Source: Mycobacterium sp. UM_CSW
GTDB lineage: Bacteria > Actinomycetota > Actinomycetes > Mycobacteriales > Mycobacteriaceae
Direction of reading: 5' to 3'
Length of the DNA stretch: 64,000 nt
Assembly (NCBI RefSeq): GCF_000455205.1
Contig: NZ_AUWQ01000019.1
Coordinates: 19,379-83,378, forward strand
Under the pieces are notes generated by a model. That model was not told the DNA's origin and did not search any database. It saw only the letters and a list, made by a program, of their open reading frames with translations. Below, one piece after another: positions 1 to 37,202 of the stretch. The translations under genes were made by a program, and so were the position numbers. The stretch's first letter is position 1, and each line of letters begins with the position of its first letter.

Positions 1-20
1 TCCTGGGGCTTGCCGGCTAG

Positions 21-65
21 TTACCCGCTAGCGCGGTAGCGGAATGGACGGTGGCGGTAACGACA
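21..65 (+). promoter_or_regulatory. Two-part regulatory element upstream of htrA-like gene
   Basis: Bases 21-38 read TTACCCGCTAGCGCGGTA, an imperfect palindrome, and bases 50-65 read GGTGGCGGTAACGACA. The second block is repeated exactly at 23497-23512, also after a similar palindrome and a 12-base gap. The element ends 112 bp before the protease start at 178. Related copies occur at 3207, 3919, 4029, 11598, 23468, 36141, 36657 and 37187. Binding of a shared regulator is inferred from the recurrence; the regulator is unknown. Confidence 0.5.
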
Positions 66-177
66 GCCGCGCTCTCAGCCGCGATCCTGGACATGAGCGG
101 TTCCAGCGCGCACAGCGCCGAACCGATGTCGTTGCGCCCCATGGCCTTCGACGTATTCGAGGTGAGGACAAGGACTC

Positions 178-1371
178 ATGTCTGTTGATGACGGCTGCTA
201 CTGCCTGTTGCCGCCGTCCGGCCGACACTCGTCGCACCGGGTGCCCCGGCGCCGGAAGCGGTTGGTGCGCGGCGGGTTGTTGCTGCTGCGTGGAGCGGAG
301 GTCGCGTTGTTTGTCGCGACGATCTTCGCCGCCGTCGCGTTGCTTGCCCACCCGCCCGCGGTCGGCAGGTCGTCAGTAGATTCCAGTTTCGCGTTGGCTT
401 TGCCTAATTCCGGGCCTAATTCCGGCGCGTTCTCTGTCCAGGAGGTGGCCGCGAAGGTGTTGCCCAGCGTGGTGACGCTGAAATTCAATGACGGCAACCG
501 CTCTCAGCTCGGTTCAGGCGTGATCCTCACCGCCGACGGGCTGATCATGACCAATAACCACGTCGTGGCACCGATGAGCGGTGGCCGTCGGCCGCCGGCG
601 GACACCGAGGTGACCCTCAGCGACGGCCGCACCGCGGCGTTCGACCTGATCGCCACCGACCCGAGGAGCGACATTGCGATCGGGCGGGCTCGGGACGTGT
701 CCGGCCTCACCCCGATCTCGGTCGGCTCGTCGGCGGAGCTGCGTGTCGGTCAGCCCGTCGCGGCGGTGGGGTCTCCACTGGGGCTGCGCGGCACCGTCAC
801 CGCGGGCATCGTCAGCGCGCTGAATCGGTTGGTAAGTCCCGCGATTGACCCGGGCGGGCCGCTGAGCGCGTATTACGCCATCCAAACCGACGCGGCGATC
901 AATCCGGGTAATTCCGGTGGTGCACTCGTCGACATGAATGGCGCGCTGGTCGGCATCAACGCCGCCGAGGCGGTGCTGCCCGCCGCGGAGGGTGCGGGCA
1001 GCACAGCACACGGATCGATCGGTCTCAACTATGCGATTCCCGTCGACCACGCCGCACGCATCGCCGCCGAACTGGCCACGACCGGCCAGGCATCGCATGG
1101 CTGGCTGGGCGTGCAAGCCACCGGCGACGCCGGTGTCCTCGGCGCCAAGATCACCGGGGTGGACGCCGGAAGCCCCGGTGCGGCGGCCGGATTGACGGTC
1201 GGCGCTGTCGTCACCAAGGTCGATGACCAGATCATCGACAGCGGAGCCACCTTGGTGGCGGCCGTGCAATCCAGGGAACCCGGGGCCTCGGTCGCGCTCG
1301 CGTTCGTGCACAGTTCGGGTCTGCCGATGACGGCGCGGGTCACCCTCGGCACCGACCAGGGTCGGCAGTAG
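178..1371 (+). CDS. Membrane-anchored HtrA-type serine protease with PDZ domain
   Basis: This is a 397-residue S1C (DegP/HtrA) family protease, likely acting in protein quality control outside the membrane. A basic N-terminus is followed by one hydrophobic segment at about residues 41-57, which should anchor it with the protease domain outside. The trypsin-like triad is visible: His128 in TNNHVV, Asp165 in DPRSDIAI and Ser246 in NPGNSGGAL. A single PDZ domain fills roughly residues 305-390, with the GWLGV start typical of the family. The length matches mycobacterial PepD/HtrA paralogues. The start is the first ATG and no strong Shine-Dalgarno is seen. It stands alone; the next gene is on the other strand. 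The family is certain, but the exact orthologue is not. Confidence 0.9.
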   Translation: MSVDDGCYCLLPPSGRHSSHRVPRRRKRLVRGGLLLLRGAEVALFVATIFAAVALLAHPPAVGRSSVDSSFALALPNSGPNSGAFSVQEVAAKVLPSVVTLKFNDGNRSQLGSGVILTADGLIMTNNHVVAPMSGGRRPPADTEVTLSDGRTAAFDLIATDPRSDIAIGRARDVSGLTPISVGSSAELRVGQPVAAVGSPLGLRGTVTAGIVSALNRLVSPAIDPGGPLSAYYAIQTDAAINPGNSGGALVDMNGALVGINAAEAVLPAAEGAGSTAHGSIGLNYAIPVDHAARIAAELATTGQASHGWLGVQATGDAGVLGAKITGVDAGSPGAAAGLTVGAVVTKVDDQIIDSGATLVAAVQSREPGASVALAFVHSSGLPMTARVTLGTDQGRQ

Positions 1372-1409
1372 CGAGCTGCATCGAGACTGTGAACTGACGC
1401 GCTGGCCGT

Positions 1410-3020
1410 TCAGACCGGCACGCAAGGGATTTCGGCCGCGAGCGTAGTGCCCTCGCTGTGGCCGCTGGCGACATCCAACCGACCGCCCAGCGCCTCCGCC
1501 CGGTCCCTGAGCCCGATCAGCCCGGATCCCCGCGGATCGGCGCCACCGATGCCGTCGTCAGATATCCACAGGCGCACCCGCCCGTCATCGGCCTCCACGG
1601 CGACAATGACACGGGACGCGTGCGCGTGTTTGGCGGCGTTTGTGAGCGCCTCCGCGACAACGTAATACACCGCCACCTCGACGGTTTTGGGCAATCGCCG
1701 CGGGACGTCGACGCGCAGCTCGACGGGCATGGCGAAACGGCGGCACAGGGCACGCAGCGCGGGGCCCAGGCCGGCATTGGACAGCACGGCCGGATGGATG
1801 CCGCGGGAGAGCTGACGTAGTTCCTCGCTCGCCGCCGCGACTTCGTCGGCGAGTTCGACGATCTCGTGGTGCAGCCGGCCGTCGGGGGGCAGGGAGGCCT
1901 GCAGGGCCTGAAGGCGCAGCCGCAACGTGACGAGGCGCTGCTGCGCACCGTCGTGCAGGTTGCGTTCGATGCGACGCCTGGCCTCGTCACCGGCGGCGAC
2001 GATGCGGGCCCGTGAAGCCATCAGCTCATCGCGCGCCTGTGCATTGGCGATCGCGGTCGCGACCAGCTCGGCGAAATCCGCCAGCTGCTCCTCGGTATGG
2101 GGCGGGTGCGGGTCGGGTCCCGAGGAGGCGATGACAGCCGCGCCCCAGAGCCGGCCGTCCACCTCGATGGGGGCGCCCACCGCCGAACGAATGCCCACGC
2201 CGCGGACCACGGCGGCGATCGGGCCGGCCGCATGCTCGTGGCTGTCCATCCGGGCGGTCGTGCCGCTCTGAAACACCATCGCCGCGACGTTGTCGCCGTC
2301 GAGCGGGAACACCCCGCCGACCGGGATCTTGTCCAAATGGGCCTTGTCGTGGGCGGCGACCAGCTCACACGAGCCGTTCCCCAAGTAGCGGACCAACACG
2401 CAGTTCTGCACCCGCAACGCGCGGGCGACCTCTTCGGCGACCGCGGTGAAGACCTCGGCCGGCGAAACACCGCGGGCGACGAGCGTCGCCACCCGGCGCA
2501 GGGACGTCTGGCGTTGCGCCAATTGGCTGACCTGATTCGCCGCCCGTCGGGTTTCCGCCGTGCGTAGCCGGGCCCGGCCCGCCAGCACATTCGTCAGGAT
2601 GCCGAGGGGCAGAAAAACCGCGAGCGGGAGAAGCTGCGCCGGGTGCGACGGCAGCGCGCCGAGGCCGGCGTCGAGGTGGATCTGCAGGTATACCACCGCG
2701 CTGACCAGCGTCGTCAACACCGCCAGACCGATGTTCCAGAACGACGAGATGACCAGGACGCCAAAGAGATACAGCGCGCCCAAGGTGCTGTGGGGTGCAA
2801 CCGCGGAAAGCAGCCGGACCATGATGGTTTCGGCGACGATCAAGGTGGCGGCAACGATTATCCCGAGCCATGGTGGACTACTCGGCGCCACCGACGACCG
2901 CCCGTGGCGGCGTTTGGCTCCGGGCCGGAAGGGAATCGTCGACCATTCGTTGGATGTCATCGCACGCACGGCTCGATCGGTAGTGCGTCCAGCCGACGGC
3001 GCCGGCGCACAGGCGATCAC
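1410..3020 (-). CDS. GAF-domain sensor histidine kinase, NarL/HisKA_3 class
   Basis: This 536-residue sensor kinase has hydrophobic segments at about residues 52-145 (DUF4118-like), a linker, one GAF domain at about 175-330, a HisKA_3 dimerisation domain with the phospho-acceptor His356 in RNLHDGAQQR, and an HATPase_c domain ending in DDGIGGAD and GLRDR motifs. The GAF-HisKA_3 part closely resembles the last GAF and kinase core of the five-GAF kinase at 17279-21244. Kinases of this class phosphorylate NarL/FixJ response regulators, but none lies nearby or anywhere in the window. The GAF ligand cannot be told from the sequence. The start is uncertain: Met21 (base 2960) is an alternative. A copy of the recurrent palindrome lies at 3207-3222. 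Confidence 0.85.
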   Translation of the reverse strand: MIACAPAPSAGRTTDRAVRAMTSNEWSTIPFRPGAKRRHGRSSVAPSSPPWLGIIVAATLIVAETIMVRLLSAVAPHSTLGALYLFGVLVISSFWNIGLAVLTTLVSAVVYLQIHLDAGLGALPSHPAQLLPLAVFLPLGILTNVLAGRARLRTAETRRAANQVSQLAQRQTSLRRVATLVARGVSPAEVFTAVAEEVARALRVQNCVLVRYLGNGSCELVAAHDKAHLDKIPVGGVFPLDGDNVAAMVFQSGTTARMDSHEHAAGPIAAVVRGVGIRSAVGAPIEVDGRLWGAAVIASSGPDPHPPHTEEQLADFAELVATAIANAQARDELMASRARIVAAGDEARRRIERNLHDGAQQRLVTLRLRLQALQASLPPDGRLHHEIVELADEVAAASEELRQLSRGIHPAVLSNAGLGPALRALCRRFAMPVELRVDVPRRLPKTVEVAVYYVVAEALTNAAKHAHASRVIVAVEADDGRVRLWISDDGIGGADPRGSGLIGLRDRAEALGGRLDVASGHSEGTTLAAEIPCVPV

Positions 3021-3206
3021 GGCTTCTCTGGCTTACGCGTGAACTGGGCGACGGTGCTGCCGTGTTGCGGTGACTGGCGCGATTCCACAACAAAACTCCA
3101 TCCCGCCGACTTCGGCAGTGGCGGCGCTTGATTGTTTCGGGGGGCGCCTCAATCCAGTGTCGCCAAGGGTCAGCCGCTTCACATCGCTGCTGGCTTCAAC
3201 CGCGCA

Positions 3207-3222
3207 TACCGGCTAGCGGGTA
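3207..3222. promoter_or_regulatory. Recurrent palindrome TACCGGCTAGCGGGTA
   Basis: A 16-base imperfect palindrome, one base from the perfect form TACCCGCTAGCGGGTA. The identical 16-mer occurs at 36657-36672. It lies between the sensor kinase start (3020) and the end of the carboxymuconolactone-decarboxylase-family gene, so it most plausibly serves the kinase, 187 bp away. Function is inferred from repetition only. Confidence 0.45.
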
Positions 3223-3254: not shown

Positions 3255-3848
3255 TTAGCCGGGCGCGGGTATCTCGAAGGCGTTGAGGATCGCGCACACG
3301 GTGTGGTAGATGCCGGTCAGGACGGCGGCCTCCATCACCCCTGCCGGGCCAAGCGTCGCCTCCGCCGCACGATATAGCGTGTCGTCGAGGCGGTGCTCGA
3401 CCGACAGTGCGCGGGCGACAAGGTGGGCAACGGCCTCGTCCTTGGTCAGATCGTCCGGAAGTCCGCCGTCGGCCAGTGTGCGCACCGCCTTATCGGGGAG
3501 CCCGGCCTGCCCGGCGACCGCGCAATGCGCATACAGCTCATAGGGGGCCCGCCATACCGCGCCGACCGACAGGATGATGACCTCCCTGCAGCGTTTGCTC
3601 AGCGAGGTGTTCGTCTGCTCGGTCACCGCGAGTTGCACGAAGGCTGACGAGATGGCCGGGGTCAGCAGCGCTGGGTTGAAGGGACCGATCAGCCGGCCCG
3701 CATCGGTGCGCGCCCGGAACTTTGCGGCCTCCGCCCATGGCACCGCAACATTCGTGAGCCAGTCGAAGAGCTCCCGCTGGGCCGGATCGAGCGCCGCACG
3801 CTCGTACAGCCGAAGACGACCGCCCAGCCCGCCGCCATCAACCGCCAT
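3255..3848 (-). CDS. Carboxymuconolactone decarboxylase (CMD) family protein
   Basis: A 197-residue cytoplasmic protein with a CMD domain at about residues 85-185. The domain is recognised from REVIILSVGAVWRAPYELY and the following HCAVAGQAG segment. It has the helical His region of the family but lacks the CXXC pair of AhpD-type peroxidases, so a peroxidase role is unlikely; a decarboxylase or hydrolase role is possible. I chose the ATG at 3848 because AGGAGG lies directly upstream (minus strand). A longer reading frame to 3911 adds a tail without family features. A copy of the recurrent GGTAACGACA block sits 71 bp upstream. No operon partner is visible. Substrate unknown. Confidence 0.8.
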   Translation of the reverse strand: MAVDGGGLGGRLRLYERAALDPAQRELFDWLTNVAVPWAEAAKFRARTDAGRLIGPFNPALLTPAISSAFVQLAVTEQTNTSLSKRCREVIILSVGAVWRAPYELYAHCAVAGQAGLPDKAVRTLADGGLPDDLTKDEAVAHLVARALSVEHRLDDTLYRAAEATLGPAGVMEAAVLTGIYHTVCAILNAFEIPAPG

Positions 3849-3918
3849 GAGTCCTCCTACGTTTGGGCCTGGCCTGTCACGAACCACCTGCCTTAAGCAT
3901 GCCGCCATCAAACCCTGA

Positions 3919-3937
3919 TGTCGTTACCGCTAACCGG
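3919..3937 (-). promoter_or_regulatory. Recurrent GCGGTAACGACA block upstream of the CMD gene
   Basis: On the minus strand these bases read CCGGTTAGCGGTAACGACA. The last 12 bases match the second block of the elements at 50-65 and 23497-23512. It lies 71 bp before the CMD-family start at 3848. The accompanying palindrome is only weakly recognisable further upstream. Confidence 0.35.
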
Positions 3938-4028
3938 AATCGACCCGCCAGGACAGCCCATCTCGCAATGAACCACGCTGCGCCGCAGCGACGGTCGCAA
4001 AGGAGCGGCTGGCGAGCCGGTCAAAGTA

Positions 4029-4074
4029 ATTACAGCTAGCCAGAAGTCAAAGGGGACGCTAGCGCGGACGACAG
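4029..4074 (+). promoter_or_regulatory. Two-part regulatory element upstream of PE/PPE pair
   Basis: ATTACAGCTAGC at 4029-4040 followed by ACGCTAGCGCGGACGACAG at 4056-4074 aligns, with substitutions, along the whole length of the element at 23468-23512, including the terminal ACGACA. The end lies about 105 bp before the PE start at 4179, the same distance seen at the htrA-like gene. It is the most diverged plus-strand copy. Confidence 0.35.
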
Positions 4075-4178
4075 CTGCGCCGGCCTCGGCAATGCTACGA
4101 GTTGAGCTTGGCTGCCGAGATGCTCGCATGTCCCGTGCCAGTGAACCAAGTCACCAAATCCGGATCGGGAGAACAAAA

Positions 4179-4478
4179 ATGTCGTTCGTCACCACACGGC
4201 CCGAAGCGCTGACCGCCACCGCGGGACAGCTGGCGGCAATCGGGTCGGCGATGACTGCTTCGAATTCTGCTGTGGCACAATCCGTAACCGGTCTGGTTCC
4301 GGCTGCCGCCGACGAGGTGTCGGCACTGACCGCGGCCGCGTTCACCGCGCACGGCGTTTTGTATAAGGAGATCGGCGCGCAGGCCGTGGCCATGCATCAA
4401 CTGTTCGTGGCCACCTTGCAGAACTCCGCCGGCTCCTATGCAGCCACCGACGCCGCCAATGCGGCCAGCGCCCGCTGA
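4179..4478 (+). CDS. PE family protein (PE domain only)
   Basis: A 99-residue PE protein with the family N-terminus MSFVTTRPEAL and the YAATDAANAA end of the PE helical hairpin. It has no C-terminal extension. PE proteins of this size form heterodimers with a PPE protein and are exported by type VII secretion. The PPE gene starts 15 bases downstream, so the two are almost certainly one operon and one secreted complex. The start at 4179 follows a GGGAGA Shine-Dalgarno; the frame is open further upstream but without PE homology. Confidence 0.92.
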   Translation: MSFVTTRPEALTATAGQLAAIGSAMTASNSAVAQSVTGLVPAAADEVSALTAAAFTAHGVLYKEIGAQAVAMHQLFVATLQNSAGSYAATDAANAASAR

Positions 4479-4493
4479 GAGCCGGTCGGACAC

Positions 4494-5624
4494 ATGGACT
4501 TCGGAGCACTACCGCCGGAAATCAACAGCGGCAGAATTTATTCCGGCCCCGGACCGGAGTCGATGTTGGCCGCCGCGACCGCTTGGGAAAAGCTGGCCGC
4601 GGACCTGTACTCGACGGCCTCCTCGTACGCCGCGGTGGTGTCCGGACTGACCTCCGACGGCTGGCAGGGCCCGGCATCGGCCTCGATGGCGGCCGCGGCG
4701 GAGACCTACGTGACCTGGTTGGGTACCACGGCATCGCAGGCTGGGCAGGCGGCAAATCAGGCGCACGCCGCCGCGGCGGCGTTCGAGGCGGCGTTCGCGG
4801 CCATGGTGCCACCGCCGCTCATCGCCGCCAACCGCGCGCAGTTGGCAACGCTGGTTGAGACGAACTTCTTGGGCATCAATACCGCGACCATCATGGCGAC
4901 CGAGGCCCAGTATGCCGAGATGTGGGCTCAGGACGCCGCCGCCATGTACTCGTATGCCGGGTCTTCGGCCGCCGCGGCGACGCTCACGCCGTTCACCGCG
5001 CCGCCCCAAAACACCAACCCGGCCGGTGTGGGCACGCAAAGCGCCGCGGTCAGCAATTCCACCGGGTCGACCCTGCCGTCGATCGACACGATCGTCCAGC
5101 TGATCGCCGACGACATCAACAACGCGCTGGCGCCCGACCACATCAACTCCGGAATCAGCGCGTTCGCGACGATCCCCTCGATCATCTTGGCGGCGGCCTC
5201 CTTGTTTTCGAGTTCCGGCACTAGCGCCGCCGACTCAACGGCGGCGGCATTGACCGACGTGAGCACCGGGCTCGGCCAGGTGGCGAGCACCCTCGGATCG
5301 GTGGGCTCCGCCTTCGGCCCGGTCCAGCTGGGCGGATCGGTGTCCGCCGAGATGGGTCGGGCGGCCGGTTTGGGCGCGCTGTCGGTCCCACAGAGCTGGG
5401 GCACGCTCACTTCCGCGGCGTCCGGCTCGCCGAAAGCGTTGCCAGTCAATCTCGTCAGCGAAACCGACCTCGGGGAGATGGCCCCGCCGGTCAGCCTGGC
5501 GGGCGCCCCGGCGACCCTGGCGGCCGGAGGGGCCGCCCGGGGCAGGTCGATCGCGCCCGACGGAACGACCGTGCGGTCGTTGATGCGGCCCACCGTGCTT
5601 CCGCGTCAAAGGTATATCGGATAG
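4494..5624 (+). CDS. PPE family protein, SVP subfamily
   Basis: A 376-residue PPE protein. The N-terminal PPE domain (about 1-175) begins [12 protein letters not shown], which gives the Pro-Pro-Glu motif, and carries the WXG-type turn DGWQGPAS near residue 60. The C-terminal part has the LSVPQSW motif near 300 that defines the PPE-SVP subfamily. The tail lacks the PRYGxKPIVMPK end seen in the PPE gene at 62484. It should be co-secreted with the PE protein encoded 15 bp upstream, most likely through ESX-5, the usual route for PPE-SVP proteins. The downstream region is empty of clear genes. Confidence 0.93.
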
Positions 5625-5851: not shown

Positions 5852-6020
5852 CGGCGATACCTGCCCTTCTCGGTCGTTCCCGTCCAGACCGGCCGCCGCG
5901 TCCGACGAGACTGTCCCACAAACGCTTTGGCCACCATCGCGGCGGGTTGCCGGGCGAAGGTAAACGCGCCGCCCGGCAGTTACCACTTCAGCATCGCCCG
6001 CGACGGCCGACATGTCGTCC

Positions 6021-6096
6021 CTGCTGGCCGCCGCAGCCACCCCCGGGTAGCTGTACATCGCCACGTCCGCACCCCGACACCTCGGCTTCGGCAATG
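6021..6096 (-). pseudogene. Possible PPE gene relic
   Basis: Read on the minus strand, this stretch aligns to the PPE core segment [16 protein letters not shown]: a GCCGAGGTGT start, then GGCGATGTACAGCTAC and GCGGCGGCCAGCAG. The reading frame shifts in the middle. It is only about 75 bases and the flanks no longer resemble PPE, so chance similarity cannot be excluded. Confidence 0.22.
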
Positions 6097-6890: not shown

Positions 6891-7787
6891 TCAAGTCTGG
6901 GCAAGCGCGAGGCCCGTGAGCCCGAAGCCCAGGTGCACGAGTTCAGTGTCAACGCCGGTGTCGAGGTTGACGTAGCGGATGCCGCCACCCAGATCACCCA
7001 CATAGAACTCCGACTCGGACACCGCGGCGACGCCGATCGCCTCGTGGTACCCGCGAGACACGATCTCCGGTGCACCGATCGTCGGCTGCACCGCCGCGCG
7101 GTTGAGCGTGTTGCCGTCGGGTTCGGCGCCGCGATCGGTCCACAGCATCGTCGTGCCCCCGAGCAGGTGCAGATCGATGGGTTCCGGGAGACCCCGCCAC
7201 AGCAGTTCGATGTCCTCGCGATGCCGCGGACTGACATCTGCCGGCAGATCCAGCGGCGCCCGAAAGATCCTGCCCTCACCGGCCTTTGGTGCACCCTTCT
7301 GCGTCCAGTACAGCAGGCGGCGCTCCAGGTCGACGGCGATGCCGACGCAATGGTTCGCGATCGTTTGCGCGTCCTCGTCGCCTACCCCGGTCACCACCAG
7401 GGGCCGCAGGCCGCTGCCGTCGAGGTTGCAGGTCAGCACTTGCATGCCCTCACGGTCGCACCAATACAGCACGCCCGCTTGCCAATCGGCCGCGAGCTGC
7501 TTGCCCGTGGTGAAGGCGCCGCGCGGCACGATCGTGACGCGGTTGGTTCCGTCCAGATCCGCGCGCTCCAGCGATCCGTTGCGGGCGTAGGCAACTTCCG
7601 AACGTGGGTCGCCTCCGGGATCGGGGGCGCCCATGTTCGTCCAGTAGATGTGGCCGCGTTCCTGGTCGACGACGAGACCGTCGGGCCTCTCGTCCAGCCC
7701 GGCGATCAGGGTCCGCACCCGGGCACCGTCCAACGACACCGCCTGCATCTCCTGCTTGCCGTCGTTGAGCACCAGCAGCTCGGTCAT
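6891..7787 (-). CDS. SMP-30/YWTD-type beta-propeller, probable lactonase-like hydrolase
   Basis: A 298-residue protein with repeated IYWTN, LYWCD and LYWTQ strands, each closing a propeller blade, the signature of the YWTD and SMP-30/gluconolactonase-like fold. The blades cover nearly the whole length and no signal peptide is present, so it should be cytoplasmic. Its ATG overlaps the stop of the flavin hydroxylase by four bases, so it is translationally coupled as the last gene of the ring-cleavage operon. In that setting a lactonase or intermediate-hydrolysing role is reasonable, but the metal ligands of true SMP-30 enzymes cannot be assigned here. The start at 7787 excludes a long upstream extension that lies within the previous gene. 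Confidence 0.8.
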   Translation of the reverse strand: MTELLVLNDGKQEMQAVSLDGARVRTLIAGLDERPDGLVVDQERGHIYWTNMGAPDPGGDPRSEVAYARNGSLERADLDGTNRVTIVPRGAFTTGKQLAADWQAGVLYWCDREGMQVLTCNLDGSGLRPLVVTGVGDEDAQTIANHCVGIAVDLERRLLYWTQKGAPKAGEGRIFRAPLDLPADVSPRHREDIELLWRGLPEPIDLHLLGGTTMLWTDRGAEPDGNTLNRAAVQPTIGAPEIVSRGYHEAIGVAAVSESEFYVGDLGGGIRYVNLDTGVDTELVHLGFGLTGLALAQT

Positions 7788-9367
7788 CAGCGCTCGCTTT
7801 CGGTTTCCGCGGCAGCGCCGACGGAGAACGACGGCACCGCATCGCACAGCGTACGAATGTTCTTGCCGGCCTGCATGACCGCGCCGTCCGGTCGGACGAT
7901 TGCCGCGGTCGCCCGGCCTCCCCGGAGCCACTTGCCGAGCTGGCTCTCGCGAGTGACGGAGACCACCACGGCCCCGCGGTCGTCGAGCTCCTTCTGCTGC
8001 GTCGGGCTCAACCACGCCGACGTGACCAGCGCGAAGCGGTTGCCGACGACCTGGTCGAGGTGCAGCCCGTCGCGCAGGACCGGGTTGGGGCACAGCGTTC
8101 CCGCCAGGCCGCCCGGAACACGCGACTTGATCACCATCTCCGACCGGTGCAACCCGGGCGCGACGCCGTCGGCGGCGCTGGTGCGGGTGCCCGGCAGGCG
8201 TAGGTTCTGCAGCCGCGGGAAGACCACCTTGCGGACGAGGTCGCCGACCGTGCCGCCGCCCGTCATCGCTGCTCCGACCGACACGGCCATCATGATCATG
8301 GCCGCGGCGTGGGCCTTGCGCTCCTGCTCGTAGGTGTCCAGCACGCTTTCGGGCAGGGAATTGCCTAGCACGCCAGCCACTTTCCAGGTCAGGTTCAGCG
8401 CGTCACGCAGGCCGGCCGCCATCCCCTGGCCGACGAACGGCGGCGTCAGGTGGGCCGCGTCGCCGAGCACGAACACGTTGCCTTCGCGCCAGCTGCTGGC
8501 CACCTGCGCGCGGAAGGTGTAGGCGGTGACGCGGACCAGGCGCAACTGCTCCGCCGGCACCTCGCCCAGCCATGGCTTGATCAACGGCTCGATCTGCTCG
8601 ATGGTCTGGTAATCCGCGGCGCTCTCCCCATCGAGAAGCCGGAATTCCCAACGGTAGCGGGTCTGCCCGACGCGCATGTACGTGCCGGCACGCTCCAGGC
8701 TGCACAGCTGGTGGCAGCCCTCCCACTGGTCGAGGTCGGCGTCGGTGTCGACGTCGATGACGATCCACTCCTGCTGGAACGGCAGCCCGTACATGTGCGA
8801 GCCGATCGAAGCCCGAACGATGCTGTTTGCGCCGTCGCAGCCCAGCACGTAGCTGGCATCGACGGACTGCTGTCCGCCGCGCACCCGATCAAGGAAGCTG
8901 ACCCGCACCTTCCCGTGCTTGTTCTGGGTGAGGCTGGTGACCTCGACGTCACCGTGCAGCGTGACGTGCGGGTAGCGCTTGAGGTTGGTGCGCATCATCG
9001 CTTCCAGCTCCGGCTGGTCGAACATGTTCATCTGCGGGTAGCCGTTGGCGCTGGGGTCGGTGCTGCGCTTGAGCTCCGCCAGCACCCGAAACTCCTTGTC
9101 CAGCAGACGAAGTCCGTGCGCGGGCCGCCGGTGGGCGGCGAACTCGTCGCCCACGCCCAGGCGTGCCAGGATCCGGTAGATCTCGTCGTCGGCGTGCACC
9201 GCCCGCGGCAGCGGGTAGACGGTTTCGTGCCTGTCGAGCACCAGCGTCGGGATGCCGTACTGCCCCAGCAGCGTGGCTGCGGTGATGCCGGTCGGGCCGG
9301 CGCCGACGATGATCACCGGCACGAAGTCCGGCAGGGACGCCGCGGCGCCGTTGGAGTGTGCGTTCAT
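7787..9367 (-). CDS. FAD-dependent aromatic hydroxylase (MhpA/PheA-type monooxygenase)
   Basis: A 526-residue class A flavoprotein monooxygenase. The FAD dinucleotide fold GAGPTG is at about residues 22-27, the CDGANS motif that contacts FAD and NAD(P)H is near 180, and GDAAHLTPPFVGQGM, the ribityl-binding signature, is near 300. A thioredoxin-like C-terminal domain follows, as in 3-(3-hydroxyphenyl)propionate and phenol hydroxylases. The enzyme should ortho-hydroxylate a phenolic substrate to a catechol, which the dioxygenase encoded two genes upstream can cleave. The start ATG at 9367 overlaps the stop of the FAH-family gene by four bases and the stop overlaps the next start. Substrate is inferred only in class. 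Confidence 0.9.
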   Translation of the reverse strand: MNAHSNGAAASLPDFVPVIIVGAGPTGITAATLLGQYGIPTLVLDRHETVYPLPRAVHADDEIYRILARLGVGDEFAAHRRPAHGLRLLDKEFRVLAELKRSTDPSANGYPQMNMFDQPELEAMMRTNLKRYPHVTLHGDVEVTSLTQNKHGKVRVSFLDRVRGGQQSVDASYVLGCDGANSIVRASIGSHMYGLPFQQEWIVIDVDTDADLDQWEGCHQLCSLERAGTYMRVGQTRYRWEFRLLDGESAADYQTIEQIEPLIKPWLGEVPAEQLRLVRVTAYTFRAQVASSWREGNVFVLGDAAHLTPPFVGQGMAAGLRDALNLTWKVAGVLGNSLPESVLDTYEQERKAHAAAMIMMAVSVGAAMTGGGTVGDLVRKVVFPRLQNLRLPGTRTSAADGVAPGLHRSEMVIKSRVPGGLAGTLCPNPVLRDGLHLDQVVGNRFALVTSAWLSPTQQKELDDRGAVVVSVTRESQLGKWLRGGRATAAIVRPDGAVMQAGKNIRTLCDAVPSFSVGAAAETESER

Positions 9368-10281
9368 CGGTAAACCACCTTGTTGCGTTGCGTGCCGAGG
9401 TCGAGGGCGCCGTCGTCGGTGGCCACCGTGGCCTCCACGACGTCCCCGTGGTGCAGGTAGTTGGGGTTCTTCGCCTGGTCGGCGAGGAACGTCATCAGGT
9501 CCATCTGGTGCGGGTTCTCGACTCCCCGCGCGGTGAGCGCGGTGCCGACCGGGGTCCCCGTGAGGATCAGGTCGCCGGCTTCCACCTTCTGGAACCTGGC
9601 CAGCGTCTGCAGAGCCTCGACGGGCGAGTACAGCATGTCGCCCTCCACCACCATGTTCTGCCGCAGCTCGCCGTTGACCCGCAGCTGCAGCCGAAGGTCG
9701 CCGAAGCGCTTGAGCTCGTCGGCGTCGACCAGCACCACGGCCGGCCCGAGCGGGGTGAACGTCGGGTACGACTTCGACTCGAAGAACTGCTGTTTGGTCA
9801 GCTGCACGTCGCGCGCCGACACGTCGTTGGTCACGACCAGCCCGTGAACGAACTCGGCCAGGTTGGCCTCCGTCACCTCGGTGCCCACCGGGATCTCGCG
9901 GCCGATCAGCAGACCGATCTCGAGTTCGTAGTCCAGCAGCTTCACGTGGGGTGGCTTGACGATGTCGTCGAACGGACCGGTGACCGAACCGGAGGCCTTG
10001 CGGAAGAAGGTCAGCGGCGTCTTGGCCGGGTCGCGCCCGACGTCGCGCACGTGCGAGGCGTAGTTGGTGGCCTGGGCCACCAGCCGGCACGGCGTGGTGA
10101 CCGGCGAGACCAGCGCGAGGTTCGCCACCGGCACCGTGTCGGCGGAGTGGGCGGCGTCGTCGATGGCGTGGCGGTCGGCCAGCACGCCGGCGGTGGTGGT
10201 CGCGTCGGTGCGGATGCGGGCGGCGCCGTTGGGCGTCTGCACCCACCACGCGTCGGCGGTGCGCAGGATCGAGATGGTCAT
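9364..10281 (-). CDS. Fumarylacetoacetate hydrolase (FAH) family protein
   Basis: A 305-residue FAH-family enzyme. The conserved metal-binding elements are visible: YELEIGLLIGREI near residue 125 (metal-binding Glu residues), then VTNDVSARDVQ near 155 and the GDLILTGTPVG loop near 250. The family cleaves carbon-carbon bonds or decarboxylates 2-oxo acids with Mg or Mn. Between an extradiol dioxygenase and a flavin hydroxylase, it most likely acts on the meta-cleavage product as hydrolase, hydratase or decarboxylase. It begins 38 bases after the dioxygenase stop and its stop overlaps the hydroxylase start (ATGA). The start at 10281 begins the conserved domain. Confidence 0.88.
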   Translation of the reverse strand: MTISILRTADAWWVQTPNGAARIRTDATTTAGVLADRHAIDDAAHSADTVPVANLALVSPVTTPCRLVAQATNYASHVRDVGRDPAKTPLTFFRKASGSVTGPFDDIVKPPHVKLLDYELEIGLLIGREIPVGTEVTEANLAEFVHGLVVTNDVSARDVQLTKQQFFESKSYPTFTPLGPAVVLVDADELKRFGDLRLQLRVNGELRQNMVVEGDMLYSPVEALQTLARFQKVEAGDLILTGTPVGTALTARGVENPHQMDLMTFLADQAKNPNYLHHGDVVEATVATDDGALDLGTQRNKVVYR

Positions 10282-10319
10282 TGCGGGGATCCTTACTTTC
10301 TCTTGGTGGATGGTGGGTG

Positions 10320-11465
10320 TCAGGAGTTGCCGACCGCGAACAGCCCGCGCAGGGCGGACAGGTCGAACTCGTTGTCGTGGCGCAGCGCGTCGACCATCAG
10401 GGCGACTTCGCGCGCGGTCTCGCTCGGCGAGCCGACGCCCAGGAAGTCCCGGCTCGGCGGCGGGCCCCATTGGTACAGGCCGGAGGCAGTCAGCGGCGCC
10501 CAGCCGGGCTCGAGCGTGTTGTCGAACATGTCGCCGTCGGCGTAGTGCTCGACGAGGAAGTCGCCCTCCGGGTCCCGCCAGTAATCGAAGAGCTGGCTGC
10601 CCTGGATGTGGCGGCCGATGCCCCACGAGCGGAAATACCCTTGCTCGCGCAGGTATTCGCCGCCGGCGGCCAGCGCGTCGAGGTCGGCGACCTGATAGGC
10701 CGAGTGCACGTAGCGGTGGGTCGGCCCCAACGCCATCGCCAGCGTGTGGTGGTCGGCGGGCACCGAGCCGCGGTCGCAGCGGATGAAGCTCATGACGGGG
10801 CCCCGCTCGCGCTGGCCCGGGTAGTAGCAGAAGTCGCTGACGATCAGGCCGAGGTGCTCCAGGTACCAGTTCAGCGCCTCGATGTACTTCGGGGTCTGCA
10901 GCACGATGTGCCCGAGCCGCTGGACCGTGGCGGGCACGCGCGGGGGCCGCTGGGTGGAGTTGGCCCGGACGGTCCGGCGGCTGGGGCCGAAGTTGAACAC
11001 GTGCGGCTGCTGGGAGGGCAGCTCCTCGAACTCGTAGACGCCCGAAACCACCTTCAGCGGAATGCCGCTCGGGTCGACGAGGTGGATCGCCACCCCACCG
11101 AGGGTCTCGGGCAGCGGCCGCACCGTCGTCCCGGTCGCGCCGGCCAACCGCAGCAGGTCGGAGTACTCGGCGGCCACAAAGGCGGGGCCGATGAACCGCG
11201 ACCGCGCGCCGCGGCGGATCAGGACGCACGGCGCACCGGCGTCACTGCCGCGCAGGTGTAGCTCGTCTTCGGTGCGCAGCGCGACGCTGAACCCGAACGC
11301 CACCGCGAATTCCTCGGCCTTATTCAGGTCGGGCTTCTCGAACTCCAGCCAGATGACGTCGTGGACTTTGATGACCGGGTTGGCGCAGCGTCCGGGATGC
11401 TCACCCGGCAGGCCGCCCTGCTCGCTGTGCAGCCCGTTATGGGCACCGATGAGTTGGTCGGTCAT
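10320..11465 (-). CDS. Two-domain extradiol ring-cleavage dioxygenase (VOC superfamily)
   Basis: A 381-residue type I extradiol dioxygenase with two glyoxalase-like modules, at about 35-150 and 180-335. The likely iron ligands lie in the second module: His in RLGHIVLQ, His in GIGRHIQGS and Glu in FLVEHYADG. The enzyme should open a catechol ring next to a hydroxyl with O2. It is the first gene of a four-gene minus-strand operon with FAH hydrolase, flavin hydroxylase and propeller protein. The ATG at 11465 is preceded by GAGGAG; the open frame continues upstream but without homology. The recurrent palindrome sits at 11598-11616, about 130 bp upstream. Natural substrate unknown. Confidence 0.88.
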   Translation of the reverse strand: MTDQLIGAHNGLHSEQGGLPGEHPGRCANPVIKVHDVIWLEFEKPDLNKAEEFAVAFGFSVALRTEDELHLRGSDAGAPCVLIRRGARSRFIGPAFVAAEYSDLLRLAGATGTTVRPLPETLGGVAIHLVDPSGIPLKVVSGVYEFEELPSQQPHVFNFGPSRRTVRANSTQRPPRVPATVQRLGHIVLQTPKYIEALNWYLEHLGLIVSDFCYYPGQRERGPVMSFIRCDRGSVPADHHTLAMALGPTHRYVHSAYQVADLDALAAGGEYLREQGYFRSWGIGRHIQGSQLFDYWRDPEGDFLVEHYADGDMFDNTLEPGWAPLTASGLYQWGPPPSRDFLGVGSPSETAREVALMVDALRHDNEFDLSALRGLFAVGNS

Positions 11466-11597
11466 TGGTCGCTCCTCAGACAAGATGAAAGACATGAATT
11501 GGCAAGGCTTTCGGCGGCGCACGCGTCCGCTTACCGCACTCGCCATCAAGCATGGCGCCGTGGTGACCGCCTGTCCTTGCGGCTGACGCCACTCGGC

Positions 11598-11616
11598 ATA
11601 CCCTGCTAGCGGGTAT
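11598..11616 (-). promoter_or_regulatory. Recurrent palindrome upstream of the dioxygenase operon
   Basis: ATACCCTGCTAGCGGGTAT has perfect six-base arms (ATACCC/GGGTAT) around a GCTAGC core. It belongs to the recurrent family and lies 133 bp before the dioxygenase start at 11465. The 393-bp intergenic region to mmpS also holds an A+T-richer stretch at about 11710-11760, a GGTCGAAAGACC mini-hairpin at 11788-11799 and a separate palindrome at 11803-11820. No gene is seen in it. Confidence 0.5.
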
Positions 11617-11802
11617 CCGCGGTTCTGACTATTCGTCACTGTTGTGTTGGATGACAACGCAACTCGGTCAACGACGAGCCGATGCCCCCCAAGAATCGCC
11701 GTTAGATTGCGCAACTAATTCATATAGCGCTCTTCGCTTTTTAGCGTTTACTATGCACACACAACCGAATCTGACGGTCCAGGAAAGGTCGAAAGACCCG
11801 CC

Positions 11803-15599: not shown

Positions 15600-15695
15600 G
15601 CCGGTGCCTATACCCTCCGCCGCTCTCGTCAATCGCCGCGGCGGGATACTTTCGCGGGGCGGATATCGGAGTCAGACGCGCTCAGACGGGTTCAC

Positions 15696-15742
15696 GCCAG
15701 CCGGTAGGTGCCGCTGGTGGCTTTCCGCAACCGGCTATGGGT
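15696..15742 (+). promoter_or_regulatory. Possible copy of the recurrent element upstream of ndh
   Basis: GCCAGCCGGTA at 15696-15706 followed after nine bases by GGTGGC, then AACCGGCTATGGGT at 15729-15742, resembles the two parts of the recurrent element in degenerate form. It lies 145-190 bp before the ndh start at 15887. It is weaker than the copies at 21 and 23468 and may be chance. Confidence 0.25.
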
Positions 15743-15886
15743 GCCAGCGGTGATGTGTTTTCCAGCGTCAATCTCGATCATTGACACGCACGGACCCACT
15801 CCGCGCGCCGGTTTGTTCCGCGGCGCGGAACCGTGCGGAGCAAGTGCAACGCGAGATGGCGACTAGAAACGACTGAAGGAAGTGAA

Positions 15887-21244: not shown

Positions 21245-21461
21245 CTGTTCAGTATGTATCGTTCGGACGTTCAGCAAAGCCCCACCGTTGCTTTTTTGCA
21301 CTCCGCTTATCTCGCGTCGACCTTGCCACCACGCAGCGGCGAAGCCGACCAGCACACCTGGCAGAGTTCTCTCAAAAGGCGAGATGAACGGCTTTGTCGC
21401 ATGCCCTGCGCGTTGCCGGAGATGTGATGACGGCCAACGCTTACAGCATTACGCTCATCCG

Positions 21462-23467: not shown

Positions 23468-23512
23468 ATTACCGCTGGCTGGTATATCCATTTGCCGGTG
23501 GCGGTAACGACA
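23468..23512 (+). promoter_or_regulatory. Two-part regulatory element upstream of aldehyde dehydrogenase
   Basis: ATTACCGCTGGCTGGTAT at 23468-23485, then GGTGGCGGTAACGACA at 23497-23512. The second block is identical over 16 bases to the one at 50-65, and the gap between the GGTA of the palindrome and this block is 12 bases against 11 there. The element ends 130 bp before the ATG at 23643. It is the best-preserved pair in the window and the basis for proposing a shared regulon. Confidence 0.5.
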
Positions 23513-23642
23513 TGTCCTCGCGACGGCCGCATCCTGAGATCAACCCCGCGACAGCAAAGGCTGCGCGTAATCGCTTGCAGAAAAAGAAGTTACAAGCCAA
23601 GCAGCGGTGCGGAGCCGCTCGGAGACAATTGGAGGAACAACC

Positions 23643-25031: not shown

Positions 25032-25070
25032 TCCAATTCCCCAGTGGCTCAACGTAAAAGGAAGGCAATC

Positions 25071-26771
25071 ATGGCTGACTTCACCGTGGGGAAGTACCTC
25101 GCGAAGCGGTTCGAGCAGATCGGGCTGAAGCACTACTTCATGGTCCCCGGGGACTACAACCTCGTCCTGCTCGACGAGCTGCTGGAGAACGAGAACCTCG
25201 AGCAGATCGGCTGCTGCAACGAGCTGAACGCCGCCTATGCGGCCGAGGGCTACGCCCGGGTGAACGGCGTCGGCGCCGTGCTCACCACGTTCAACGTCGG
25301 GGCGTACTCGGCGCTGAACGGGGTGGCCGGCGCCCACGCCGAACGCCTGCCGGTGATCATGGTGTCCTCGAGCCCCAATACCAACGATGCGGGCGAGAAC
25401 CACATTTTGCACCACACCGTGGGCACGCACGATTTCACCGCGCAATACGAGGTGTTCCGGCAGGTGACTTGCGCGGCAGTGCGCATCCAGCACCCCGACA
25501 ACGCACCGGCCATGATCGATCACGCGATCAGCACCGCGTTGCGCGAGCGCAAGCCCGCCTACATCGAGATCCCGTGCAACCTGTCGGCCGCGCCGTGTGC
25601 GGCACCCGCGCCGTTCTCGGAGTTGCCGGCCTGGCAGCCGAGCAACGCGCGGACGCTGGCCGACGCCGTCGCGCGGGCCACCGACCTCATCGCCGGGGCG
25701 AAGAAGCCAATCCTGTTGGCCGGCGTGCATCTGCGCGCCTACGGCGCGATCGACGCCTTCCGCGAACTGGCCGAGGCGCTGGGCTGCGCGGTGGCGGTGA
25801 TGCCGAACGCCAAGGGCTTCTTCCCCGAAGACCACCCGCAATACGCCGGGATCTACTGGGGCGAGGTGAGCAGCCCGCAGTGCCAAGCCATCGTGGACTG
25901 GGCCGACCTGATCGTGGCCGCCGGTCCGGTGTTCAACGACTACACCACGGTCGGCTACAGCGCCATGCCGCCGCGCAAGCGGATGATCAACGCCGAGCCC
26001 CGGGTGGTGCGGTTCCCCGACTCCGAGTTCACCGGCGTGTCGCTGGCGGACTTCCTGTCCGACCTGGCGAAGAAGGTGCAGGCCAACGACGCCACCCTGA
26101 CCCAGTACAAGCGGCTGCGGGGGACGGCGTCGGTGGCGCCGCGGCCGGCCGCCGAGGACCCGTCGGCGCCGCTGAGCCGGGTCGAGATGTGGCGGCAGAT
26201 CGAGGAGGAACTCGACTCCGACACCACCCTGCTGGTGGAGACCGGTGACTCCTGGCTCAACGGCATGTACACGCGGCTGCCCGGTGGTGCCCGGTTCGAG
26301 ATCGAGATGCAGTGGGGCTCGATCGGCTGGTCCGTGCCCGCCAGCTTCGGGTACGCGATGGGGCTGGAAGAGGGCCGCCGGCTGGTCTCGGTGATCGGCG
26401 ACGGGTCGTTTCAGCTCACGGCCCAGGAGGTCTCGAACATGATCCGCCACCGCCAGGAGATCCTGATCTTCCTGGTCAACAACCGCGGCTACGTGATCGA
26501 GTCGGCGATCCACGACGGTCCCTACAACTACTACAAGAACTGGGACTACGCCGGGCTGGTCGACGCGTTCAACGCCGAGGACGGCGCCGGGCTGGGGCTG
26601 AAGGCAACCACCGCAACGGAATTGGCCGCGGCGATCGAGAAGGCCCGCGCCCACACGGGTGGTCCGGTCCTGATCGAGTGTGAGATACCGAATGACGACG
26701 CCAGCCCCGAGTTGATCTCTTGGGGATCGAAGGTGGCACGCGTCAATTCCCGCCCGGATCCGCGGTTCTGA
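25071..26771 (+). CDS. Thiamine-diphosphate 2-keto acid decarboxylase (PDC/IPDC family)
   Basis: A 566-residue cytoplasmic ThDP enzyme that decarboxylates a 2-keto acid to an aldehyde. The cofactor-activating Glu51 is in CCNELNAAYAAEGYAR. The paired His of pyruvate-decarboxylase-type enzymes are in ILHHTVGTHDF. The Mg/ThDP motif is GDGSFQLTAQE through FLVNNRGY. These His residues separate it from acetolactate synthases. Relatives are M. tuberculosis Kdc, bacterial pyruvate decarboxylase and indolepyruvate decarboxylase; the natural keto acid (branched, aromatic or pyruvate) cannot be told. The start at 25071 follows AAAAGGAAGG. It is the second gene of the operon with aldehyde dehydrogenase and ends at a strong hairpin (26786-26833). 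Confidence 0.9.
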   Translation: MADFTVGKYLAKRFEQIGLKHYFMVPGDYNLVLLDELLENENLEQIGCCNELNAAYAAEGYARVNGVGAVLTTFNVGAYSALNGVAGAHAERLPVIMVSSSPNTNDAGENHILHHTVGTHDFTAQYEVFRQVTCAAVRIQHPDNAPAMIDHAISTALRERKPAYIEIPCNLSAAPCAAPAPFSELPAWQPSNARTLADAVARATDLIAGAKKPILLAGVHLRAYGAIDAFRELAEALGCAVAVMPNAKGFFPEDHPQYAGIYWGEVSSPQCQAIVDWADLIVAAGPVFNDYTTVGYSAMPPRKRMINAEPRVVRFPDSEFTGVSLADFLSDLAKKVQANDATLTQYKRLRGTASVAPRPAAEDPSAPLSRVEMWRQIEEELDSDTTLLVETGDSWLNGMYTRLPGGARFEIEMQWGSIGWSVPASFGYAMGLEEGRRLVSVIGDGSFQLTAQEVSNMIRHRQEILIFLVNNRGYVIESAIHDGPYNYYKNWDYAGLVDAFNAEDGAGLGLKATTATELAAAIEKARAHTGGPVLIECEIPNDDASPELISWGSKVARVNSRPDPRF

Positions 26772-30404: not shown

Positions 30405-30594
30405 TCACCGGGAAGTCATCGGCGCTGGCGCCTATCAATGACTGTCGGGCAACCTCAGTGCCGCATACTCGCCAGCTGCAATCGTCTGCCGCTTACTTGC
30501 GTGCGTCGACCTGAACAACGGGCGTGTTTTGACGCCGAAAGGACAGATCTGCGCTCAGAATCGATGCCGCTTCAGGCTCGACGCGAACAGCCCC

Positions 30595-33944: not shown

Positions 33945-33965
33945 TGGCTGACTTCCTTACTCGCT

Positions 33966-35998: not shown

Positions 35999-36140
35999 GC
36001 CCAGAAGTCTTGTCGGAGCGACCTCAAAAAGCGTCCCCGCCAACACGACTCGTCTTTTCTGGTTAGCACCAATCCTCAAGTTAGCCGTCGCGGGGCCAAA
36101 GAAGTTGTGGTGCAACGTGCTAGGCCGCGTGTGGCAAGCG

Positions 36141-36168
36141 TGCCACCACCAATCCTTGATTACCGGCT
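36141..36168 (-). promoter_or_regulatory. Half palindrome plus GGTGG block upstream of the ACP operon
   Basis: On the minus strand AGCCGGTA is followed after 10 bases by GGTGGTGGCACG, matching the right half of the palindrome and the start of the GGTGGCGGTAACGACA block with nearly the same gap as at 38-50. It lies about 145 bp before the ACP start. The left half of the palindrome is missing, so support is modest. Confidence 0.3.
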
Positions 36169-36219
36169 GTGCGACTGACCGGATTCCGGCCAGCTGGAAG
36201 ACAGCTGACCGGCGCGCTT

Positions 36220-36391: not shown

Positions 36392-36532
36392 TCACTTCCC
36401 GGCCCGCGACATCAAGTTCCGCAGCCCGCTGGGCGCATCGGTCTCCGCCGTGCCGGGATGAGACACCATCACGTAGCCGGCGTAACCCCACATCATCGGT
36501 ATTGCGGCCAGTACGCCATACATCGCTGTCAT
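36392..36532 (-). CDS. 46-residue small membrane protein
   Basis: The ATG at 36532 is preceded by AGGAGGTGAC, one of the best ribosome sites in the window. The product has a hydrophobic segment at about residues 4-23 (MYGVLAAIPMMWGYAGYVMV) and a short polar tail. The recurrent palindrome at 36657-36672 lies 125 bp upstream, the same distance as for the larger genes of this set, so it is probably an expressed gene under that control. I do not recognise a family. Confidence 0.6.
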   Translation of the reverse strand: MTAMYGVLAAIPMMWGYAGYVMVSHPGTAETDAPSGLRNLMSRAGK

Positions 36533-36655
36533 GACGTCACCTCCTGAAGTACCAGGGCCTCAACGCGTTGTTGATGTGTTAAGCCTTGCCCCGCGGGGCG
36601 CTGACGTCGCCGTGGCTGGCACCCATCAGGGGGTCCCACCAGTCGGGATCTTCGC

Positions 36656-37120
36656 CTACCGGCTAGCGGGTATGCGGGGTGCGGCCGGTTCCTCAGCGGG
36701 CACGCTGACGTCCGGGAAGGCATTGATGAGGGCGCGGGCCCGTGCGTGATTCCAACGCCGGATGGTACCGGCGGCATGAGCCGCGACCAGGCCGCAGACG
36801 AGGCCCAGGTTGGCGAGCAGGGCCACGCTCAGCAGAAAAGCGATCAGGCGGGCACCGGCGTTACGGGCATCCACGTCCTCGAAGAGGATGACCGAAATGG
36901 CCTCGGCGGCCAGCAGGGTTTGGACGACGACGAATACCGCCGCCGGCAGGATCGCGCGCTTGACTGCATCGGCCGCTTCGGTGGCCGGAATGGAAGCCGC
37001 CTTCCGGGCGATGATCGGCACGTCCGTGTACCCCTTAACTGCGTGCTGGGTCCGTCGTTGACCAGTCTGACGAAACACCGGCAGACCCGCATTGCCGCTA
37101 GCGGCCGGATCGTGATTCAT
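36656..37120 (-). CDS. Two-TM membrane protein of unknown function
   Basis: A protein of about 154 residues with a polar N-terminus (about 1-55), two transmembrane segments at about 58-75 and 92-115, and a basic then Pro-rich tail. No family motif is recognised. The ATG at 37120 is one candidate start; a GTG at 37168 would add 16 residues, and neither has a strong ribosome site. Its stop codon overlaps the palindrome at 36657-36672, so that site sits between this gene and the small gene downstream. Confidence 0.6.
   Translation of the reverse strand: MNHDPAASGNAGLPVFRQTGQRRTQHAVKGYTDVPIIARKAASIPATEAADAVKRAILPAAVFVVVQTLLAAEAISVILFEDVDARNAGARLIAFLLSVALLANLGLVCGLVAAHAAGTIRRWNHARARALINAFPDVSVPAEEPAAPRIPASR
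36657..36672 (-). promoter_or_regulatory. Recurrent palindrome TACCGGCTAGCGGGTA
   Basis: Identical over 16 bases to the site at 3207-3222. It is 125 bp upstream of the 46-residue membrane protein gene on the minus strand and overlaps the 3' end of the previous gene, which argues that its conservation reflects DNA function rather than coding. Confidence 0.5.
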
Positions 37121-37186
37121 GCTGGCGGGGGCCGATGATCCCGAGACCAGCCAAATCAGCTGCGGCACAACTTGATCGGATGAGCC

Positions 37187-37202
37187 TTCCGGCTAACCAG
37201 TA
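37187..37202 (+). promoter_or_regulatory. Diverged copy of the recurrent palindrome upstream of the lipase
   Basis: TTCCGGCTAACCAGTA matches TACCGGCTAGCGGGTA at 12 of 16 positions and lies 111 bp before the hydrolase start at 37313. The second block of the element is not recognisable here. Confidence 0.3.

Follow-up and report, generated by a model that had tools for sequence, protein, structure and literature searches.

A recurrent palindrome in a mycobacterial contig, probable operator of a neighbouring NarL-type response regulator

Response regulators of the NarL type bind two-fold symmetric sites with a geometry of about 7-2-7. DevR is reported to act at promoters with more than one box, where a weak neighbouring box is filled cooperatively and the proximal box lies over the -35 element (PMC3029386). 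The consensus of OsdR, AGGGCCGATCGGCCCT, is said to conform to that of DevR (PMC5069765), and OsdR binds DevR targets. The present analysis concerns 64,000 nucleotides of Mycobacterium sp. UM_CSW (contig NZ_AUWQ01000019.1; G000:C19:19379-83378), hereafter the window, in a host genome of 6.39 Mb. The window carries a recurrent palindrome with the consensus TTNCNGCTAGCNGNAA, which differs from the operator type AGGGCCGATCGGCCCT of the DevR/DosR-OsdR group. Judged from sequence comparison, its copies very probably serve as operators of a NarL-type response regulator encoded just left of the window (C19:17447-18154), which would activate transcription as serial dimers. A first-pass annotation of the window had postulated a NarL-type regulator for these sites; such a gene does adjoin the window, and the operator accompanies its orthologs across the phylum.

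A search for GerE domains in the host genome returned 27 places, one of which (C19:17954-18094) lies ~1.3 kb left of the window. The regulator and the signalling genes considered together with it are as follows.

C19:17447-18154, NarL-type response regulator (REC + GerE), ~1.2-1.9 kb left of window base 1
Contig 18913-19398, plus strand, single-domain response regulator, receiver only; its 3' end is window 1..20
1410..3020, minus strand, sensor kinase DUF4118-GAF-HisKA_3-HATPase with an ATG at 2960, proposed partner of the regulator
17279..21355, minus strand, second large kinase, PAS-5xGAF-HisKA_3, sharing 57% identity with the first kinase over 375 residues

Both domains of the NarL-type regulator were detected above cut-off (Response_reg 8.5e-18, GerE 1.6e-14), and D29, D73, S104 and K127, which we take to be the conserved phosphorylation pocket, do not vary among the 15 orthologs aligned. 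DevR is the solved structure that matches the regulator best (3c3w, E 1.1e-21). The DevR contact residues K179, K182 and N183 align with G, E and K in this protein, in line with a different operator. No NCBIfam family matched above cut-off among the best 25 of 63 families; the best-scoring named families, MadR (NF047785) and MctR (NF052445), gave 119.9 and 107.2 bits, far under their 300-bit cut-offs, and the protein is a member of neither. A sigma-factor gene and the gene of the single-domain regulator lie between the NarL-type gene and the window, and the kinase gene lies inside it. Among 31 sequences from relatives, 11 share the arrangement >NarL-type regulator <single-domain regulator [palindrome] >kinase, in this or the mirrored direction, and 22 carry the NarL-type gene at some position. 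In another family of the bacterial order (G055, L072) all three module genes and operators are present, and in a third family (G059, L073) an 11-kb contig carries operators, the single-domain regulator and a kinase; the NarL-type gene was not seen on that contig. The second large kinase is possibly an additional input to the regulator.

All palindrome coordinates of the first-pass annotation were re-read, and motif copies are present where it had put them; the 16-mers at 3207 and 36657 are indeed identical. Searched with up to 3 mismatches, TACCCGCTAGCGGGTA has 4 matches in the window against 0.11 expected, and GGTGGCGGTAACGACA has 5 against 0.85 expected, two of them exact (50-65 and 23497-23512). 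Across 734 kb of mostly module-centred sequence, 11, 16 and 37 sites were counted at 0, 1 and 2 mismatches, compared with averages of 0.2, 0.37 and 5.4 for 30 permuted half-sites; one of these, a near-copy of the motif, accounts for 5, 8 and 37 of the control counts. Sites were also counted with a position matrix at a score of 11.5, and strong operators at a score of at least 18. The motif, which the first-pass annotation proposed to compare inside and between genes, is not equally common in the two when counted by matrix matches in the 31 relatives' sequences plus the window contig, the sequences on which the matrix was trained: of 128 such matches, 97 fall between genes, where 21% of the bases lie. 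An Rfam scan found no RNA element at the sites, its sole match being the tRNA at 61142-61215.

The sites, which precede about ten groups of genes, often come in pairs at a fixed step. A second match lies exactly 23 bp away at 19.6% and 24 bp away at 10.3% of the 97 intergenic sites, against a baseline of 0.5% at random intergenic places, and a further match is found at 47 bp in 5.2%. Thirteen composite promoters align as a first, distal operator (O1), 7 bases, a second operator (O2), CGACA and then GCGGCATNCTGAG. From the 23-bp peak and this alignment it follows that GGTGGCGGTAACGACA, reported earlier as a second recurrent block, is the right part of O2 joined to CGACA; its two exact copies are real, and it is not a different element. 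The 23-bp peak also led us to reject the view that GGTGGCGGTAACGACA is a -10 box. Over 101 offsets, an ANNNT hexamer was found to start 53.5 bp from the centre in 10 of 19 distal operators (p = 4e-10); for proximal operators the distance is 30.5 bp, in 10 of 65 cases (p = 1.6e-4; many sites counted in both directions). Rows from the sister species G075 were removed beforehand (3 of 22 distal, 9 of 74 proximal) and other orthologous rows retained; the genomes are related by descent, which makes these p values optimistic. The -10-like hexamers CATGCT, CATCCT and GATCCT sit 30.5 bp beyond the O2 centre. Placing the -10 at -12 to -7 puts the centre of the proximal operator near -42.5, where it would overlap the -35 region. 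The promoters of the ndh-like gene and of a small membrane protein fit a putative arrangement of three operators with 47 bp from O1 to O3, set by hand and with O2 and O3 scores below zero. The predicted operators and promoters of the window are listed below.

22..37, plus strand, O1 of the HtrA-like protease promoter, diverged TACCCGCTAGCGCGGT; composite match 17-92, E 2.7e-13, training set; ortholog in G264
45..65, plus strand, O2 of the protease promoter (45-60, 23 bp past O1) with CGACA; holds GGTGGCGGTAACGACA; kept in G075
83..88, plus strand, -10-like GATCCT of the protease promoter, 30.5 bp from the O2 centre
3207..3222, minus strand, O1 of the sensor kinase promoter, TACCCGCTAGCCGGTA, score 21.3
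3156..3199, minus strand, weak O2 (3184-3199) and -10-like GACACT (3156-3161) of the kinase promoter
3924..3939, minus strand, operator TTCCGGTTAGCGGTAA of the CMD-like gene; CGACA at 3919-3923, -10-like CATGCT at 3896-3901; E 9.5e-13, training set
4030..4045, plus strand, O1 of the PE/PPE promoter; O2 at 4053-4068 (score -2.0), CGACA at 4069-4073, -10-like AATGCT at 4091-4096
5984..6055, minus strand, extra composite promoter, untrained, E 2.3e-5 in the whole genome; precedes a possible 34-residue membrane peptide (5747-5851)
11600..11615, minus strand, O1 of the dioxygenase/hydroxylase operon; O2 at 11577-11592, -10-like CATGCT at 11549-11554; E 2.9e-15, training set
15691..15706, plus strand, operator of the ndh-like gene; by hand, O3 at ~15738-15753 and -10-like GATCAT at 15776-15781; O1 unchanged in G075
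23469..23484, plus strand, O1 of the aldehyde dehydrogenase operon; in G075 replaced yet palindromic
23492..23512, plus strand, O2 TTGCCGGTGGCGGTAA of the same operon (23492-23507) with CGACA; -10-like CATCCT at 23530-23535
36161..36199, minus strand, strong palindrome 36184-36199 (score 20.1) and half-site partner 36161-36176 (score -6.8), 23 bp apart; precedes the operon at 29169-36115
36657..36672, minus strand, O1 before the small membrane protein; by hand, O2 at 36634-36649 (score -8.4) and O3 at 36610-36625 (score -6.6); composite match 36579-36680, E 3.3e-4, untrained
37187..37202, plus strand, lone palindrome between divergent genes; perfect palindrome in G075

No upstream partner operator was found for the CMD-like gene, the score at the expected place being -14.3. 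Two of the earlier copies need qualification: that at 22 is present but is a poor palindrome with 3 mismatches and a matrix score of 7.9, under the 11.5 counting threshold, and the half-site at 36161 is the weak partner of the stronger, previously unlisted palindrome at 36184-36199. Further sites added here are the ndh-like operator at 15691-15706, the composite promoter at 5984-6055 and an operator at contig position 18893, just left of the window between the sigma-factor gene and the single-domain regulator gene.

The association of the operator with the regulator was surveyed in 396 genomes of the genus, 139 of which were classed as kinase carriers (kinase relative at E <= 1e-80). Of the 139 carriers, 72 have at least one exact TWMCSGCTAGCSGKWA (94 sites in all), compared with 15 of the 257 other genomes (20 sites; p = 2e-25, an optimistic value because the surveyed species are related by descent). 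Seven of the 15 site-bearing non-carriers own a regulator of at least 63% identity, compared with none of 30 site-free non-carriers taken in handle order. A phylum-wide test, independent of matrix training, was made by searching the regulator alignment A1 in GTDB genomes and examining the best 80 of 474 confirmed loci; the 63% split was fixed before counting, and some of these genomes may belong to the same species as those of the genus survey. Of the 44 loci whose regulator is 63-82% identical, 33 hold sites with a score of at least 18, 41 in all, where 38 control matrices gave a mean of 0.26 and a maximum of 1; none of the 36 loci around relatives below 63% holds such a site. At the looser score of 11.5 the two groups gave 90 hits and 10, the latter being the control level. 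The operator is thus tied to the orthologs of the NarL-type regulator and not to the family at large. The 44 loci span Mycobacterium, Nocardia, Pseudonocardia, Saccharopolyspora, Streptomyces, Actinoplanes, Nonomuraea, Kribbella, Rhodococcus, metagenome-assembled genomes of Solirubrobacterales and others. In distant genomes the site often precedes the single-domain regulator gene, even with the kinase on the opposite side, and this gene is the most constant predicted target.

Conservation at orthologous promoters, the other comparison proposed by the first-pass annotation, is evident as well. In the sister species G075 (~95% identical), 9 of 11 sites were found in three fetched loci, and eight of them differ by 0 to 3 letters. 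Its aldehyde dehydrogenase promoter is 72% identical; there O1 has new letters and a new register and is still a palindrome, and O2 and the -10 are nearly kept. The kinase of G264 is 69% identical, and the cluster is partly rearranged in that genome with the sites kept at orthologous genes. When six upstream regions (htrA, kinase, CMD-like, PE, dioxygenase, aldehyde dehydrogenase) were aligned with those of G264 without any model, the elements were identical at 197 of 237 positions versus 334 of 567 in their surroundings (p = 1.3e-11; the dioxygenase gene start is approximate). A model-placed version gave 206 of 282 versus 106 of 240, with a placement that favours the elements and the small-membrane-protein pair left out.

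The regulon looks local in the host genome. The bare 16-mer TWMCSGCTAGCSGKWA with up to 2 mismatches has 43 places in the whole host genome versus 59 for the backward pattern; there is thus no genome-wide excess, and a genome-wide regulon read from the bare 16-mer was rejected. The backward pattern contains CGATCG and is hence not composition-matched, which makes kinase-free genomes the better control. The window contig (83 kb, 1.3% of the genome) holds 9 of the 43 places (p = 4e-9, optimistic). A sequence-only composite model was built from 13 promoters, and 150 candidates were scored per genome (of 6674 in G000). Among the matches listed for the host genome, eight have E < 0.005, all on C19 and six of them training sequences; in the window, nine reach E <= 0.01, six of them again from training. 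G264 has 19 listed matches at E < 0.005 on two contigs, five being training sequences, and in G001, G002 and G010, which have neither the kinase nor a close regulator, no match below 0.02 was found among those listed. With the downstream gene taken as the best-scoring frame within 320 bp, and hence a candidate target, untrained composite promoters precede genes for an aldo-keto reductase, alcohol dehydrogenase, carboxylesterase, aconitase, aquaporin, CRP-like regulator, sigma factor, two HtrA-like proteases and several small secreted proteins.

Small secreted-looking proteins behind composite promoters of relatives are encoded at L185:12800-13048, L306:5420-5650, L174:6958-7167, L303:10430-10732 and L308:8831-9142; several have PGNVQ-like stretches, and those of L185 and L306 have no Pfam match. 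Sigma-factor genes stand directly behind operators at L026:18157-18912, L304:9097-9621 and L189:3825-4700 (all minus strand), which suggests a regulatory cascade.

We propose that the kinase phosphorylates the NarL-type regulator, whose phosphorylated dimers would first fill the strong distal palindrome. The distal dimer would then help a second (and third) dimer onto the weaker copies, each a step of 23-24 bp, or two DNA turns, downstream. The last dimer, centred at about -42.5 and overlapping the -35, may contact and recruit RNA polymerase at promoters with a -10 of the type NATNCT. Predicted targets are the module itself (kinase, single-domain response regulator and sigma-factor gene) and the local cargo operons. 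The GAF and DUF4118 domains, together with the aromatic- and aldehyde-oxidation cargo, give a faint hint that the signal could be redox state or aromatic compounds.

Several observations weigh against this proposal, among them the missing genome-wide excess of the 16-mer. Six sequences centred on the kinase or the module (L067, L068, L073 and L179-L181) showed no NarL-type gene, and the kinase loci of L067, L180 and L181 hold neither that gene nor a site. No exact site occurs in 67 of the 139 kinase carriers, and 4 of the 44 ortholog loci lack a site even at a score of 11.5. Three of the 30 site-free non-carriers have regulator relatives of 59-62% identity; in one of these, G020, a composite match (E 4.4e-5) lies ~190 bp before the regulator gene in the opposite orientation. 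For 75 of the 114 exact sites, the distance to a listed kinase match is at most 500 bp in 16 cases and at most 10 kb in 27, so that many sites lie elsewhere in other genomes. The best composite match of the kinase carrier G011 has an E of just 0.004. The intergenic fraction and the second-operator spacing were counted in the very sequences used to train the matrix, and several weak O2 and O3 copies have matrix scores below 0. At kinase promoters of other species the distance from the palindrome to a TACCAT-like box, read by hand, varies from 10 to 38 bp, and the 30.5-bp spacing is therefore not general. No -10-like hexamer was found at the expected place before the operon at 29169-36115.

Another protein, for example the module's sigma factor or a regulator encoded elsewhere, might read the sites, the NarL-type gene being a mere neighbour. 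The module does contain a sigma-factor gene, and in 8 of the 15 site-bearing non-carriers no NarL-type gene was found at 63%. Matches to that sigma-factor gene are few, however (two among the 31 sequences from relatives, one among the 44 ortholog loci), whereas the NarL-type gene and the operator stay together from Mycobacterium to Solirubrobacterales; the NarL-type gene is also the only one with a DNA-binding domain in the minimal module, the single-domain regulator being receiver only, and sigma promoters do not take the form of a 16-mer with two-fold symmetry. We consider this explanation quite improbable. A repressor role for the NarL-type regulator, with operators near -42 and -65 blocking or looping, is unlikely. 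Sequence alone is silent on the sign of regulation, and operators precede the regulator's own module as they do for many repressors; yet a repressor would more often cover the -10 or the start, and here the proximal operator is centred at ~-42.5, upstream of the -10, with serial weak operators arranged as in the activator plan of DevR (PMC3029386).

The identity of two 16-mers in the window could be expected of a spreading intergenic repeat without regulatory role. Such a repeat would not yield fixed spacing or linkage to one regulator, the flanks are unrelated beyond the operator, CGACA and -10 blocks, and the aldehyde dehydrogenase promoter of the sister species has kept a palindrome in other letters, which leaves this origin a very slight chance. 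Hardly credible at all is that GC-rich palindromes were simply picked out by eye. The bare 16-mer does not exceed its backward control in the whole genome; the excess over expectation in the window, the counts above permuted half-sites, and the contrasts between carriers and non-carriers and between ortholog groups across the phylum all oppose chance. Activation by the NarL-type regulator from serial operators remains the reading we prefer.

The genes of the window, among them PPE, MmpL and Mycobact_memb genes, mark it as mycobacterial. They include the following proposed regulon members and the small membrane protein mentioned above.

178..1371, plus strand, HtrA-like serine protease, Trypsin_2 + PDZ, proposed member
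3255..3848, minus strand, CMD-like protein, proposed member; the label is our reading, with no Pfam and no NCBIfam match
4179..5624, plus strand, PE (4179-4478) and PPE (4494-5624), proposed members
7787..11714, minus strand, aromatic hydroxylase-like (flavin adenine dinucleotide, FAD) and glyoxalase/dioxygenase-superfamily genes, proposed members
15833..17221, plus strand, ndh-like NADH dehydrogenase, proposed member
23607..26771, plus strand, aldehyde dehydrogenase and indolepyruvate-decarboxylase-like thiamine pyrophosphate (TPP) enzyme, proposed members
36392..36532, minus strand, small membrane protein of 46 residues; its G264 homolog also stands behind such a composite match

Genes for an acyl carrier protein, an AMP ligase, a DpgA-like type III polyketide synthase and MmpL form one operon at 29169-36115, with an SfLAP gene nearby; this looks like a pathway for a small lipid or phenolic product. 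At 40534-43700 a CsoR-type metal repressor is followed by an E1-E2 metal ATPase, which we take to be CtpV-like. Farther right, a phage capsid-like gene (53645-54964), a gene for a DUF3631 protein (57179-58591) and a phage-type integrase gene (59876-61102) adjoining a tRNA gene (61142-61215, minus strand) were found, and the stretch 53645-61215, right of the regulon cluster, is probably an integrated element.

A wider proposal, which we regard as possible rather than probable, is that this is an undescribed regulator-operator pair extending from Mycobacterium to Solirubrobacterales, that some mycobacteria have regulon islands in which regulator, kinases, sigma factor and cargo share promoters of two or three operators, and that the single-domain regulator acts as a gain-setting phosphate sink. 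If true, the island would form a transferable stress programme, complete in itself and running parallel to the DosR regulon, with PE/PPE proteins, a protease, aromatic-compound enzymes, a type III polyketide synthase and small secreted proteins as cargo. In a mycobacterium, genes for PE/PPE proteins, lipid transport and aromatic compounds would thereby be tied to one switch. An unstudied two-component system would gain a defined operator, a promoter grammar (23-24 bp steps, 30.5 bp to the -10) and a target list, which together would make the regulon readable from sequence in many actinobacteria. No description of the operator or the module turned up among the entries listed by searches of open-access full texts.

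Among described systems, MnoSR of Mycobacterium smegmatis is likewise a mycobacterial two-component system with a palindrome before an alcohol dehydrogenase gene; it has one perfect genomic site and one operon (PMC11303327), and is set apart here by that description, not by motif letters. This single-operator, single-operon feature of MnoR differs from the nine composite matches of the window. OsdKR of Streptomyces coelicolor (PMC5069765) resembles the present system in having a response regulator whose site is a palindrome of 16 nt, with many such sites near the system's own genes, and differs in its operator, AGGGCCGATCGGCCCT as opposed to TTNCNGCTAGCNGNAA. The closest parallel in layout is DevR/DosR of M. 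tuberculosis, also a NarL-type regulator, whose promoters hold one, two or more packed boxes with high- and low-affinity neighbours and a proximal box over the -35 (PMC3029386). Operator letters and cargo are different, the module here has an extra single-domain regulator, and phmmer ties just the ATPase part of the DUF4118-GAF kinase to DevS/DosT, its GAF domain being assigned by Pfam. The regulator may be a second mycobacterial example, beside DevR/DosR, of the seeming use of serial strong and weak sites, and its different DNA letters would help in studying site choice by NarL-type regulators. With predicted start sites and a putative -35 overlap, the window promoters follow the DevR/DosR plan in other letters.

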